IMG/VR virus record: IMGVR_UViG_3300033143_001476 | Coordinates: 1-40,256 of that record | Length of the DNA: 40,256 nt | Source: a virus | Direction: 5' to 3' (one strand) | Part shown: one piece after another, positions 1 to 7,371 of the stretch | Position numbering within the stretch: position 1 is the stretch's first letter | Layout: each line of letters opens with the position of its first letter | Program-made: the position numbers and the translations under genes | The notes under the pieces: generated by a model | Seen by the model: the letters and a program-made list of their open reading frames with translations, nothing else | What the model was told of the DNA's origin: nothing | Database searches by the model: none

Positions 1-342
1 TGGGTTCCTACTGCTGGAAAGTTTACTCTCAAAGAAGGCGACCTAAAAGCCTATGTCAAAGAAGGTGCTAGTATTTTGTTTATCTACAATAGTGTGAACT
101 GTGGCACAAACATGAGAAAACCCAAAGATTATGATCTTGATAAGTATAAAAAATTAGTGGAAAGCAAGAGCGACCAGATTCGGTGGGGCGTTATGTGGAG
201 CGATATGGTTGAAAGATTTTACAACAATGCTAAAGAAAACGATTTATTTCGCCCGATAAATTACATGGGTGGAAAAAGCGGAGTAGTATTGAAGTCGAGT
301 GATTTTGGTAAATGGTTTACTGAACACGTTTGGAATGTTTAA
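1..342 (+). CDS. Unknown protein, 5'-truncated by the window edge
   Basis: The reading frame is open from base 1 to the stop at 340-342, so the gene probably starts upstream; a TTG at 76 is the first internal alternative start and has no good ribosome site. About 113 residues are visible. It has no motif I recognise; it is rich in Lys, Trp and aromatic residues, with no membrane segment. Its last 16 codons and the ribosome-binding leader of the next gene are repeated at 1349-1414, which makes this gene's 3' end a recombination landmark. The next gene starts 19 bases downstream. Function unknown. Confidence 0.7.
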   Translation, partial: WVPTAGKFTLKEGDLKAYVKEGASILFIYNSVNCGTNMRKPKDYDLDKYKKLVESKSDQIRWGVMWSDMVERFYNNAKENDLFRPINYMGGKSGVVLKSSDFGKWFTEHVWNV

Positions 343-360
343 TTTTAGGAAAAGTATTTT
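294..360 (+). repeat. Direct repeat A, copy 1 (3' end of first gene plus leader)
   Basis: This covers the last codons of the first gene, its stop, and the SD-bearing leader in front of the SPFH gene. The first 34 bases are identical to 1349-1382, and the rest matches with a few substitutions and small indels, up to and including the following ATG. It pairs with repeat B (1281-1348 and 1857-1924) to show that two different cargo genes have the same flanks. Confidence 0.9.
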
Positions 361-1278
361 ATGAAAAATTTTATTAAGTTTGGTACGGGGGTTGGAGTAG
401 TTTTGGGTTTGATCTTTTTGACTTGGTTTTTTGGAACCGTCAATGTGAATCGAGGTAGAGTTGGAGTTAAGACAACTTGGGGAGCGGTTGTGGGTTCAGA
501 ACTACAACCGGGAATGCACTTCAGAATTCCAGTAATGTCTGCGATTACCGAAATTTCCGTTCAAAAAGAAACCGCTGTAGCCAGTTGTCATGGGGCAAGT
601 AAGGACTTGCAGCAAGTTGACACTGACGTTAATTTGCTTTACACTATCAATCCAAGTCTAGTTTGTGACGCTTACAACAAAGTGGGCGACCGAGATGACA
701 TTGAAAACAAGATTATCCAACCTGCCATCAACGAAACTTTTAAAGCTGTTAATGCTCGATATACCGCAGAAGAATTGATCACGAAACGTGCAGAGGTAAG
801 TCTTGAAGTACAAGAAGAACTTGAGGCTTTTATTGAACGCTCTTGTAAAGATGCTGAGTTGGACGGGCTTGTTTTGTTAAGCAATATGGCGATTGAGGAT
901 TTTAGATTTAGTCCTGAATTCAATAATGCCATTGAAGCTAAGGTTACAGCAGAACAAGAGGCTTTACGAGCAGAGGAAGAAAAAAATCGCACCATTACTC
1001 AAGCTGAGGCAAAGAAGGAAGAGGTTCGACTAGCTTCTGAAGCTCAAGCCCTTCAAATTGAAAACGAAGCTAAGGCTGAAGCAACAAAAATCGAGTTGCA
1101 AAGTATTGCAAGAGCCGAGGCGATTGAGCGTGAAGCTCTAGCAATCAAGAGTAACCCAGAGTTACTCACATTGCGTCAGATTGAGACTTGGGATGGAAAG
1201 TTACCAGTCTACATGATGGGTAACGGATCAGACTCAAATGTGCTTCTTAGTCTACCCAGTGCAGGGGCAAGCAAGTGA
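361..1278 (+). CDS. SPFH/prohibitin-family membrane protein
   Basis: 305 residues. It has an N-terminal membrane anchor (residues about 6-26), then an SPFH/band-7 domain (about 27-190) with the family-type NxGxVGVxTTWG and LxPGxHFRIP segments, then a long Ala/Glu/Lys coiled coil (about 190-270) and a short tail. This is the standard prohibitin/HflC architecture and length. Cellular prohibitins form large membrane rings that scaffold or regulate membrane proteases such as FtsH; a phage copy may shield phage proteins or alter host membrane domains (inference). The leader 343-360 holds an AGGAAAAG-type ribosome site. It is the cargo of one of two tandem alleles sharing the same flanks. The family call is firm; the role is not known. 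Confidence 0.9.
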   Translation: MKNFIKFGTGVGVVLGLIFLTWFFGTVNVNRGRVGVKTTWGAVVGSELQPGMHFRIPVMSAITEISVQKETAVASCHGASKDLQQVDTDVNLLYTINPSLVCDAYNKVGDRDDIENKIIQPAINETFKAVNARYTAEELITKRAEVSLEVQEELEAFIERSCKDAELDGLVLLSNMAIEDFRFSPEFNNAIEAKVTAEQEALRAEEEKNRTITQAEAKKEEVRLASEAQALQIENEAKAEATKIELQSIARAEAIEREALAIKSNPELLTLRQIETWDGKLPVYMMGNGSDSNVLLSLPSAGASK

Positions 1279-1348
1279 ATAACAAAGTAGAACTGATTGG
1301 TTTCTATGGGTCAGACGAGACGATTGCTTGTTCGGCCTAGACAAGCAC
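1275..1348 (+). pseudogene. 5' fragment of thyX (dead duplicate)
   Basis: Bases 1281-1348 match 1857-1924, the start of the intact thyX, with 4 differences in 68. Read from a GTG at 1275, the frame reproduces thyX codons 3-21 almost exactly; the Trp codon of the intact gene is TAG here (1338-1340), so the fragment stops after 21 residues. At 1349 the sequence switches abruptly to a copy of the 3' end of the first gene in the window. The GTG overlaps the end of the SPFH gene, the position a translationally coupled thyX would have had. It is a relic of a recombination or duplication event, not a working gene. Confidence 0.85.
1281..1348 (+). repeat. Direct repeat B, copy 1 (thyX 5' end)
   Basis: A 68-base copy of the thyX start, 94% identical to 1857-1924. 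It abuts repeat A copy 2 with no spacer, so the junction at 1348/1349 is a recombination breakpoint. Confidence 0.9.
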
Positions 1349-1414
1349 GTCGAGTGATTTTGGTAAATGGTTTACTGAACACAATTGGAATATTTAATTT
1401 TAAGGAAAGTATTT
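1349..1414 (+). repeat. Direct repeat A, copy 2
   Basis: Second copy of 294-360: the end of the first gene's coding sequence, its stop codon, and the AAGGAAAG ribosome-binding leader. Here the leader serves the unknown ORF starting at 1415. Divergence from copy 1 is concentrated after the first 34 bases. Confidence 0.9.
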
Positions 1415-1849
1415 ATGAGTAACGCAACCGTACAGGTTATTTGCAAGGTAGACGAAGATTGCATCAAGCCAAAAGTACCTTCGGATCAAATTTATTTTAA
1501 GGTGAATAGTAAAAAATGCACTCAAAGCGTTGTGACTCCACCAAGTGACCACCCTGCTTCTATTGGTACAGACCAAGTTCTTAGTGCTGTAACTTACTCT
1601 GGATGCCCGTTCAACAGTTGTTGCTACAAAGACAGTGATATTAAATGGGATTTGTACTATATTGATGATGCTGGCGAAGAGGTAAAGATTTGCCGCATAC
1701 ATTTTCATCAACCTTGGAGTACAAGCTGGCATCTTAGCGAAACTACCTATTATGACCCAGATAATGGAAAATATGACGTAATGATTAAGACTGTTGATGA
1801 CGTAACAAAAAGCCTAAAATGCGAACTACACGTAAGACCAAAGGGGTAA
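1415..1849 (+). CDS. Unknown 144-residue cysteine-containing protein
   Basis: ATG at 1415 is chosen over an upstream in-frame TTG at 1385 because the bases before it form an AAGGAAAG Shine-Dalgarno at the right distance, the same leader that serves the SPFH gene. The protein has about nine Cys, including a C-PFNSCC cluster near residue 65, and alternating polar/hydrophobic stretches suggesting beta structure. There is no membrane segment or signal peptide. It resembles no family I know. It is the second cargo in the duplicated A-cargo-B arrangement and ends one base before thyX. Confidence 0.75.
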   Translation: MSNATVQVICKVDEDCIKPKVPSDQIYFKVNSKKCTQSVVTPPSDHPASIGTDQVLSAVTYSGCPFNSCCYKDSDIKWDLYYIDDAGEEVKICRIHFHQPWSTSWHLSETTYYDPDNGKYDVMIKTVDDVTKSLKCELHVRPKG

Positions 1850-1850
1850 G

Positions 1851-2528
1851 ATGAAAAACAAAGTAGAACTAATTGGTTTCTATGGGTCAGACGAGACGAT
1901 TGCTTGTTCAGCTTGGACAAGCACCTCTCGCAACCTAACAGAAAAGAAAAGGGCAAGAATTGGAAAACTCATTAACATGCTATGGAGCGAAGGACATGAA
2001 ACGCCTTTCGAAAAAGGTGTTGTTCATTTTCTTGTTGACACTGATATTGCATCCCATATCCATCTTCTTAAGCACCGTATTAGTAGTCTTAATGCTGAGT
2101 CTGCTAGATACAAGGAATTGAAGGAAGATAAGTATTATCTACCAGAAGATTGGGAAGGTATACAAAGAAAACATACTGGAGCGATCAGTGGAGAGGATTA
2201 TTCTGAACCTTGGCTTGAAACTTTAAGGCGTTACACAGAACAGGGTAATAATTTATACCATCAATGTATCACAGACCTTGAGCCAGTATTGGGACGTAAA
2301 CGAGCAAAAGAGTCAGCAAGATTTTTCAAAACTTACAATTCGCAGATTCAAGCAGATGTGATGTTCAACATGCGTAGCTTTGCTAACTTTATCAAACTGC
2401 GAAACAGTGAACATGCTCAGTTAGAAATCAGAGATATTGCACAGGTGATGTGGGATTTGGTTGAAGGTATCGAAGGTCAGCCATTCAAACACACTCTTGA
2501 AGCCATTGCAAAAAGGATTAAACAATGA
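1851..2528 (+). CDS. thyX: Flavin-dependent thymidylate synthase ThyX
   Basis: 225 residues, a normal ThyX length. It makes dTMP from dUMP with FAD, NADPH and methylene-tetrahydrofolate. The ThyX signature RHRxxSxNxxSxRY is present near residue 64 as KHRISSLNAESARY, with a conservative Arg-to-Lys change at its first position; the upstream His-rich helix and the C-terminal Arg-rich FAD/dUMP-binding region are also present. The start overlaps no neighbour; the stop overlaps the next ATG (ATGA). Together with RNR, MazG and dNMP kinase it forms the phage nucleotide-supply set. Its first 25 codons are duplicated at 1281-1348. Confidence 0.96.
   Translation: MKNKVELIGFYGSDETIACSAWTSTSRNLTEKKRARIGKLINMLWSEGHETPFEKGVVHFLVDTDIASHIHLLKHRISSLNAESARYKELKEDKYYLPEDWEGIQRKHTGAISGEDYSEPWLETLRRYTEQGNNLYHQCITDLEPVLGRKRAKESARFFKTYNSQIQADVMFNMRSFANFIKLRNSEHAQLEIRDIAQVMWDLVEGIEGQPFKHTLEAIAKRIKQ
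1857..1924 (+). repeat. Direct repeat B, copy 2 (inside intact thyX)
   Basis: The intact thyX 5' segment that is duplicated at 1281-1348 with 4 mismatches; the copy upstream carries a nonsense codon. Confidence 0.9.
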
Positions 2529-4019: not shown

Positions 4020-5081
4020 ATGAAAATTTCAGAGGACGTAAAACTAGATTTTGAAGACGTGTTACTAACTCCGGCAAGATCGACTACATCAAGCAGAAAG
4101 GACGTTGAACTTTACAGGCCATTTAAATTCTATCATTCTAAAAAAGAATGGCATGGTGTTCCTTTTATGGCAGCAAATATGCCGCACACGGGGAACGTTA
4201 AGATGGCTCAGGAATTGCTTAAACACAGCATGGTTACTTGTCTACATAAATACCATACTCACGAACAATTAGAATCTTTTTATTCTTACTTTGATATAGC
4301 ACCATTCGCTTGGGTTTCTATTGGCATGTGTCATGATGACGTATTAAAGTTAGAAAAGTTAAGTGATAGTTTAGGCTACACCCCTAATATCTGCATTGAT
4401 ATAGCCAACGGTTACACGGACAGATTTGTTTCTTTTTGTAAGTCTGTTAGAAGCAAGTTTGGTAAAGAGCCAATTATCATGGCTGGAAATGTATGCACTC
4501 CAGAAATGGTTCAGGAATTAATCATTCACGGCGGTGTTGATATAGTAAAAGTTGGAATTGGTCCGGGAAGCGTCTGTTCCACTAGACTTAAAACAGGCGT
4601 AGGTTATCCTCAGTTCTCTGCTATTGTTGAGTGTAGTCATGCAGCACATGGTCTCAAAAGCGGTGATGGAAGAATGGGGTTGATTTGTGCTGACGGTGGT
4701 TGTAGAACTCCTAGCGATGTAGCTAAATCATATGCTGCTGGTGCAGACTTTGTGATGGTTGGAGGTATGCTGGCAGGAACAGATGAATGTGAGGGTGAGT
4801 GGGAACGCTTTAGTGATGGTAAAAAGAGAAGCCTACTTTTCTATGGTATGTCCTCAGAAGAAGCTCAAGTCAAGCATAACGGAGGTATGAATGACTATGC
4901 TACCAGCGAGGGAAAGGTTAGGAAAATTCCATATAAAGGAAAAGCAGACAAGGTAATTAGAGATATTAAAGGAAGTGTCAGGAGTGCTTGCAGTTATATC
5001 GGTGCTAAATATCTTGCAGATATGTCCAAATGTGCAAACTTTATTAAAGTAAATAGGACTCATTATGATACAAACCTATAA
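4020..5081 (+). CDS. guaC: GMP reductase
   Basis: 353 residues, matching bacterial GuaC (about 347). It converts GMP to IMP and ammonia using NADPH. The TIM-barrel catalytic loop GPGSVCSTR contains Cys186, the same number as the E. coli nucleophile. Further GuaC-specific stretches are present: ICADGGCRTPSDVAKS, GGMLAGTDECEGEWE, FYGMSSEEA, and SEGKVRKIPYKG. The CBS domains and length of IMP dehydrogenase are absent, so GMP reductase is preferred. A phage copy is unusual; beside mazG and thyX it would move guanine nucleotides toward IMP and AMP, suiting an AT-rich genome (inference). Confidence 0.93.
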   Translation: MKISEDVKLDFEDVLLTPARSTTSSRKDVELYRPFKFYHSKKEWHGVPFMAANMPHTGNVKMAQELLKHSMVTCLHKYHTHEQLESFYSYFDIAPFAWVSIGMCHDDVLKLEKLSDSLGYTPNICIDIANGYTDRFVSFCKSVRSKFGKEPIIMAGNVCTPEMVQELIIHGGVDIVKVGIGPGSVCSTRLKTGVGYPQFSAIVECSHAAHGLKSGDGRMGLICADGGCRTPSDVAKSYAAGADFVMVGGMLAGTDECEGEWERFSDGKKRSLLFYGMSSEEAQVKHNGGMNDYATSEGKVRKIPYKGKADKVIRDIKGSVRSACSYIGAKYLADMSKCANFIKVNRTHYDTNL

Positions 5082-5559
5082 AAAACTCAAAGATTGGCTG
5101 GGGAGTTACAGGATAATTACAAAAGCCCAGCTTCTACAGGAAAAAAAGTCATATGCCGATGCCGTTGTAGAAGAACTCAATAGGGAAGCCCTAGAGGGTT
5201 TAGAAGCCGAAGAAGGTTTGGTTCCAAACAAAAGTGGTTCGATCCTAATAGAATTTGACGGTGAAAGCGGTGATTTTGGAGTTATGGTTGAGATAGATGA
5301 TTTAAGTGACTCTTGCGTAAAAATACTAGGTCTTTTAATGCTTCACATGGCACGAGGCGATATTGTACCGTTTGTGTACGAATCTCTTGCTGGATGGGCA
5401 GAAGAGGACGATTTTGGTGAAAGAATGGAATTTAACTCAAAACTACTAGCAGAAATAGCAGAAATAACGAATATTTTAACAGAAGAACTAAAAGCAAGCA
5501 AAAAAACAGCCGCCATCAGAGCGTCCGAAGTTTTTAACTACAGAAAGAGAGAGCATTAG
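5065..5559 (+). CDS. Unknown acidic 164-residue protein
   Basis: Overlaps the guaC end by 17 bases; ATG 5065. It has a charged helical N-terminus (1-50), a beta-rich middle (SILIEFDGESGDFGVMVEID), then a helical hydrophobic stretch (about 83-105) and a charged Lys/Arg tail. No signature residues recognised. Position after guaC suggests the same transcript. Function unknown. Confidence 0.7.
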   Translation: MIQTYKKLKDWLGSYRIITKAQLLQEKKSYADAVVEELNREALEGLEAEEGLVPNKSGSILIEFDGESGDFGVMVEIDDLSDSCVKILGLLMLHMARGDIVPFVYESLAGWAEEDDFGERMEFNSKLLAEIAEITNILTEELKASKKTAAIRASEVFNYRKREH

Positions 5560-5635: not shown

Positions 5636-6091
5636 ATGTTAGACGATATTGAAGAATACCAAGAGGGTTCAGACCCTATTTACGATATTCATTGGGAGGC
5701 TTGGGTTGATGCTTACGATAATGATACTATTGAAAGTCTACAGCAGATTATATCTGAAGAAGACGAGCAGTTGGCAGAATTTGGCATTGAGCCAGAACAA
5801 AAATACTCTCCTCCAATTAAAACAATTATGACTCCATTTGGAATACTTCCTTTAACAGAAGACTCACTAGCGAGCAAGTCGTTTAAATTTTGGGTCGGTC
5901 ATTCTAACTTTAAGTTGGTAGAAGATTTTTATGATTTGATTGAATCTTGCGATGGCGTTGAGAGTGTAGACATTATGACACCGTACAGGTTTAGAATAGC
6001 TGTTGGAAAAATGTTCCAAGACAGAGATGTTATGTACAATGTAAAACTAAAACTAACTAGCTGGATGGTGGAAAATGAGCGGACTAAGTAA
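5636..6091 (+). CDS. Unknown 151-residue acidic protein
   Basis: ATG 5636 follows GAGAGGTGCGAC, a ribosome site after a 76-base gap that is the longest since 1415 and may hold a weak promoter. The N-terminal 60 residues are strongly acidic; residues 60-75 hold a Pro-flanked segment, and the C-terminal half (about 85-150) has an FWVGHSNF and a GVESVDIMTPYRFRIAVGKMF stretch. Phage proteins of this type, with a two-strand FKVE/FRI pattern, are often uncharacterised. Overlaps the next gene by 17 bases. Function unknown. Confidence 0.7.
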   Translation: MLDDIEEYQEGSDPIYDIHWEAWVDAYDNDTIESLQQIISEEDEQLAEFGIEPEQKYSPPIKTIMTPFGILPLTEDSLASKSFKFWVGHSNFKLVEDFYDLIESCDGVESVDIMTPYRFRIAVGKMFQDRDVMYNVKLKLTSWMVENERTK

Positions 6092-6761: not shown

Positions 6762-7371
6762 ATATTGTAACTATAACAGGCCGATTGAAAACTATTCTGA
6801 TGAGCTAAAAAGTGTATTCTCTGCTATAGACTATGGTATTAAAGGGCTTAATCTCCCCATACATATGATAAAAGAGACAAGAGAGTACATGCCAAAGGAT
6901 ATGGTAATGTCTGCTCCTATAGACTACCCTATGGGACACTCGTCCTCAAAAGTAAAATATGCTATGGTTCTTAACAGCCTGAAGTCGGGTGCTAACGCCA
7001 TCGACTATGTTCCAAACCACTACTTTTTAAAAAATAAGTTTAGCTTGCTAGTCGAAGAGATCGAGGCGATATTAAATATTTGCGAAGATTACGATGCTTC
7101 TTTTAGACTATTTCTAGACTACAATAACTCTGATGCAATTACGGTTACAGCCAAGATATACGACAATATTGGAGTAAACCTGTTTTTCCCATCTCTCGGC
7201 TATCATCACGAAGATTTTTTTGATAATTTAATAAATTGTGCGATGCTAGAGCAAGAATCCTATGTTTTTTCTATATTTAACGGGCAAATGTGGAGAAAAG
7301 AGCAGGTAAAAACGGTCATGGATTCTGGGATATTTGGTGCTAGAATATACAATCTAAACCTTTTGGTGTAA
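6751..7371 (+). CDS. Aldolase-like TIM-barrel protein (DeoC-related, divergent)
   Basis: 206 residues. The stretch VMSAPIDYPMGHSSSKVKY (about 51-69), then SGANAIDYVPN and a helix LLVEEIEAIL, follows the order and spacing of deoxyribose-phosphate aldolase (glycine-rich strand end, GA-E/N-x-D-x-V-x-N, then conserved helix). The later motifs that carry the Schiff-base lysine and GGIRT phosphate loop are not recognisable; SIFNGQMWRKEQVK and IFGARIYN occupy their place. So the fold is likely but the reaction is not. Overlaps the ClpP-like gene by 11 bases. Alternative: a TIM barrel of another class. Confidence 0.5.
   Translation: MYLEYCNYNRPIENYSDELKSVFSAIDYGIKGLNLPIHMIKETREYMPKDMVMSAPIDYPMGHSSSKVKYAMVLNSLKSGANAIDYVPNHYFLKNKFSLLVEEIEAILNICEDYDASFRLFLDYNNSDAITVTAKIYDNIGVNLFFPSLGYHHEDFFDNLINCAMLEQESYVFSIFNGQMWRKEQVKTVMDSGIFGARIYNLNLLV

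Follow-up and report, generated by a model that had tools for sequence, protein, structure and literature searches.

Organization of the locus

The window is a whole contig of 40,256 bases from a viral metagenome (IMGVR_UViG_3300033143_001476), and the locus is known from this single contig. The gene content is that of a phage, i.e., thyX, MazG-like, IMPDH/GMP-reductase-like, nrdA/nrdB and DNA polymerase III-like genes (some names were given by reading translations). The order at the locus is geneX, SPFH and a thyX 5' stub, then, beyond a joint, a geneX 3' stub, ORF144 and the complete thyX:

1..342, + strand: geneX, conserved phage protein (3' part, 113 codons; the contig begins inside the gene)
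294..360, + strand: repeat A, copy 1, the last 16 codons of intact geneX plus the leader with ribosome-binding site, leading into SPFH (repeat search, self-BLAST)
361..1278, + strand: cargo 1, SPFH/Band_7 (HflK/C- or prohibitin-like) membrane protein, 305 aa (Pfam PF01145, 2.2e-23; phrog_200, 4e-50)
1275..1348, + strand: repeat B, copy 1, the thyX 5' stub, GTG start, TAG at codon 22 (1338-1340) (repeat search, self-BLAST, alignment)
1348..1349, + strand: illegitimate joint of thyX codon 25/26 to the geneX 3' end, in frame (0-4 nt of possible microhomology)
1349..1414, + strand: repeat A, copy 2, the geneX 3' stub plus leader and ribosome-binding site, now serving ORF144 (repeat search, self-BLAST)
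1415..1849, + strand: cargo 2, ORF144, Cys-rich protein of 144 aa of no known family (97% aa and 90-91% nt to the copies in L082/L083)
1851..2528, + strand: complete thyX, FAD-dependent thymidylate synthase (Pfam Thy1, 3e-32; TIGR02170, 102 bits, above cut-off)

The geneX stub proper covers 1349-1397 (the last ~15 codons) and is followed by the leader of 17-18 nt with its ribosome-binding site. The 5' end of the complete thyX (1852-1924) is the second copy of repeat B. The 5' part of geneX lies on another contig, IMGVR_UViG_3300033143_002446 (L092), whose positions 5001-5114 are identical to window positions 1-114, an overlap of exactly 114 bases within geneX. L092 appears to continue the window genome, or that of a near-identical strain, in the upstream direction. 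The base composition along the window has no sharp step at either cargo.

Direct repeats

Repeat A (294-359/364 vs. 1349-1414/1418; 92% identical, E 3e-21, repeat search and self-BLAST) consists of the geneX 3' end and the leader. Repeat B (1276-1351 vs. 1852-1927; 92% identical, E 5e-25, self-BLAST) consists of the first 25 codons of thyX. An earlier note had described two repeats flanking two unrelated cargo genes in the same order, and both searches confirm it. The junction that it placed at 1348/1349, where the start of thyX meets the 3' end of geneX, also stands, except that the copies of repeat B begin 5 nt earlier than it had noted (1276/1852). The two cargos are unrelated, SPFH being a Band_7 protein (Pfam PF01145, 2e-23) and ORF144 a protein without family. 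Self-BLAST of the 40,256 bases gave no direct repeat at E<1e-4 other than A and B, and exact-pattern scans of viral contigs with A (27 nt) and B (33 nt) gave no second contig.

The A copies offer 34 identical bases for recombination, and the B copies 38. It is very improbable that the tandem is a reversible merodiploid, by which the population could switch between two cargos from one stored genome. If it were, recombination of A with A would remove SPFH and keep ORF144, and recombination of B with B would remove ORF144 and keep SPFH.

The thyX stub and the joint

The stub comprises 25-26 codons and its GTG at 1275 overlaps the SPFH stop (..AAGTGAATAAC). Overlapping stop and start codons are a common spacing of adjoining phage genes. 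This overlap makes it probable that a functional thyX once began here, downstream of SPFH. It now contains TAG at 1338-1340 where intact thyX has TGG; Trp is found at this position in 63 of the 65 other distinct thyX 5' ends and a stop in 0/65. A recoded TAG was rejected, as 8 of the 54 genes of the window end in TAG.

Across the joint, thyX codon 25 runs directly into geneX codons, by chance in frame (ACG TCG AGT GAT TTT). The microhomology is at most 3-4 nt (..ACAAGCAC on the left side, GTCGAGTGA.. on the right), in agreement with the earlier view of an illegitimate, not homologous, joint. Partial copies of both conserved neighbours meet at it. A right, homologous joint inside thyX would not be visible without the parental sequences.

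The flanks occur as two variants, 92% identical, on a single metagenomic contig, as would be found in an assembly or library chimera of two strain variants from one metagenome. Such an origin is nevertheless quite unlikely: (i) the common sequence of k-mer length expected at the joint of an assembly chimera is absent, and 3-4 nt are too little for k-mer collapse, far below an assembly k-mer, so that real molecules must have spanned the joint; (ii) the nonsense codon of the stub is not expected in a working strain variant and, together with the short microhomology, argues against a chimera; (iii) a similar thyX stub exists in an unrelated contig, L077.

Divergence of the two thyX copies

Over codons 2-25, stub and intact thyX have six differences, in addition to the start codon: four synonymous, one Lys/Asn and one Trp to TAG. 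The synonymous proportion (4/6, against a neutral expectation of 22%; P about 0.02, few sites) is a mild departure from neutral drift and suggests earlier divergence under selection. Among the informative thyX 5' ends, 61/62 are nearer to the intact copy than to the stub, which is thus the derived copy. This fits a decay after joining, and also an in-place duplication followed by decay.

The second possibility is that geneX-cargo-thyX was duplicated in tandem within the genome (slippage or unequal crossing-over during replication of the phage DNA), after which one cargo was replaced and the stubs decayed. The derived state of the stub and its nonsense codon agree with it. However, a second event would be needed, an exchange of one cargo bounded exactly by the leader and the start of thyX. 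The synonymous excess also speaks against it, as does the derived-looking residue at HVW/HNW, which is in the intact geneX end and not in the geneX stub (small numbers in both cases). Such a duplication is considered unlikely.

geneX and the variable slot before thyX

The proposal that the geneX-thyX boundary is hypervariable is borne out by the relatives. The slot is empty in L003, L005 and L111, where thyX comes immediately after geneX. The slot contains a cupin, a cytidylyltransferase and a GNAT gene in L006, a cupin and a cytidylyltransferase in L109, and other small ORFs in L117. In many other relatives the next gene after geneX is IMPDH-like, or the cupin pair comes next with no thyX. 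Grouping of the genes that precede thyX at about 85 loci (some duplicate records) gave >40 clusters. These empty or variously filled slots and the many upstream clusters mean that the boundary is truly variable.

geneX has a D...E-x-K motif like that of PD-(D/E)XK nucleases, invariant in the full-length relatives (motif only). It has no family in Pfam, PHROG and NCBIfam, and no credible PDB match. Two unrelated-looking families with D...E/D-x-K motifs (PD-(D/E)XK-like) recur immediately upstream of thyX, with no Pfam or PHROG family: the ORF just before thyX in L012, L015-L020, L024, L027, L029 and L055, and the geneX family. It must also be mentioned that L080 has a direct repeat of 108 nt (5671-5778 vs. 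7022-7129; 88%, about 1.35 kb apart), a similar partial-gene duplication in which the beginning of a small gene located after thyX is repeated.

In L077 (4166-5004) and in L060, L062 and L063 (about 4254-5008), the ORF directly before a complete thyX is homing-endonuclease-like (NUMOD3-like motif, phrog_314). On its left are thyX remnants, i.e., codons 1-17 in L077 and the FEK..VHF codons 53-62 in L077 and L060. L077 thus reads thyX codons 1-17, a piece resembling codons 53-62, the ORF (phrog_314, 2e-5) and the entire thyX. This ORF has the look of an endonuclease that disrupted thyX and carried a complete copy in with it. The L077 stub is an independent parallel to that of the window. In fungal mitochondrial genes, homing endonucleases are known to insert together with a replacement for one end of the target gene; as there, L077 has a truncated piece of the target gene beside the insert and the intact gene behind it, whereas neither window cargo is a recognisable endonuclease.

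These contigs, and the invariant motif of geneX, raise the question of whether the window was formed likewise: thyX would have been cut near its 5' end and the repair would have captured a donor segment, as happens with homing endonucleases of the free-standing type. Little probability is given to this, since no homing endonuclease lies between the window stubs (SPFH is a Band_7 protein and ORF144 has no nuclease match), the nuclease assignment of geneX is by motif only, and the break points in thyX differ (codon 25 in the window vs. codon 17 and about 62 in L077).

Origin of the two cargos

Homologues of ORF144 were found in four other contigs (L082-L085), always directly behind nrdB; that of L084 has an in-frame deletion of 27 nt. 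None was found in bacterial genomes or in sequenced phages. ORF144 and the L082/L083 copy are 90-91% identical in nt and 97% in aa, whereas the common flanking genes are just 64-79% identical, which means that ORF144 was transferred. The DNA match runs almost exactly from start codon to stop codon. To judge by these comparisons, ORF144 moves between phages and between slots.

ORF144 has no family and no nuclease match in Pfam, PHROG and NCBIfam. A profile match to phospholipase A2 (8e-5) was rejected: it reflects a common cysteine spacing over residues 8-72 only, and, by eye, the catalytic His is missing from the aligned CKVDEDC. A match to aegerolysin was weak (E 0.18) and was set aside.

In the phages of L082/L083, with ORF144 behind nrdB, geneX is followed by an IMPDH-like gene and there is no thyX on the contig. 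A thyA-type thymidylate synthase is seen, by reading the translation, in L216 (3673-4551; same record as L082). The type of thymidylate synthase may have been swapped within this phage group.

A single-protein scan gave no relatives of SPFH. An alignment-based search gave 80 loci with 29-41% aa identity, so its phage relatives are distant (at most about 41% aa). SPFH is beside thyX or geneX in 0/80 of these loci.

Neither SPFH alone nor ORF144 alone was found between geneX and thyX in 80 thyX, 33 geneX, 80 SPFH and 4 ORF144 loci. The closest relatives available for comparison do not exceed about 80%, so the single-cargo parents may simply be unsampled. ORF144 stands behind nrdB in every relative found; we thus infer the donor allele geneX-ORF144-thyX. 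A pattern in which all relatives carry both genes with the repeats was not seen among the loci inspected.

Proposed formation of the locus

The locus is probably a scar left by recombination in the geneX/thyX cargo slot, which varies naturally; a geneX'-ORF144-thyX segment would have been joined into geneX-SPFH-thyX. The fusion of two alleles put forward in the earlier note is thereby retained in part: the anatomy, the variability of the slot, the recent transfer of ORF144, the illegitimate joint and the nonsense codon of the stub agree with it; the single-cargo relatives that it predicted were not found. The following steps would account for the locus: (i) one lineage would have had geneX-SPFH-thyX and a close relative geneX-ORF144-thyX, both being putative parental alleles; (ii) in a co-infection, a fragment starting in the geneX 3' end of the relative would have been joined to thyX codon 25/26 without extensive homology; (iii) the right side would be either the relative's own DNA or the result of homologous recombination inside thyX, i.e., one homologous end and one illegitimate end; (iv) nothing would be lost, as the product would still have geneX, the two cargos and an intact thyX; (v) the stranded thyX stub would then have begun to decay. 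We infer both the direction of joining and the side that recombined homologously.

Mosaicism of tailed phages arises by illegitimate recombination at gene boundaries. The window resembles it in that cargo is inserted neatly between conserved neighbours, the joint is without homology, and the sequence match across ORF144 stops near the two ends of its reading frame. It differs by the still legible stubs of thyX and geneX and by the two cargos in tandem.

A one-sided mechanism, homology-facilitated illegitimate recombination, was demonstrated experimentally in bacteria taking up DNA (PMC3240628) and was invoked for tandem arrays of immunity genes (PMC5361080). Here too, the thyX end could be homologous and the other end illegitimate, and the new gene pushes the older one aside, the two remaining in tandem. 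The difference is that the bacterial case is experimental, whereas the homologous end in the phage is deduced.

The event would thus be ordinary phage mosaicism, unusually readable. Exchange intermediates are seldom seen in mosaic phage genomes, the losing fragments being trimmed away; here an intermediate is preserved with the stubs of both neighbours and both cargos, and the sequence of its joint is legible to the single base. In this phage group, the region on the 5' side of thyX would be an exchange hot spot, where several nuclease-like genes recur.
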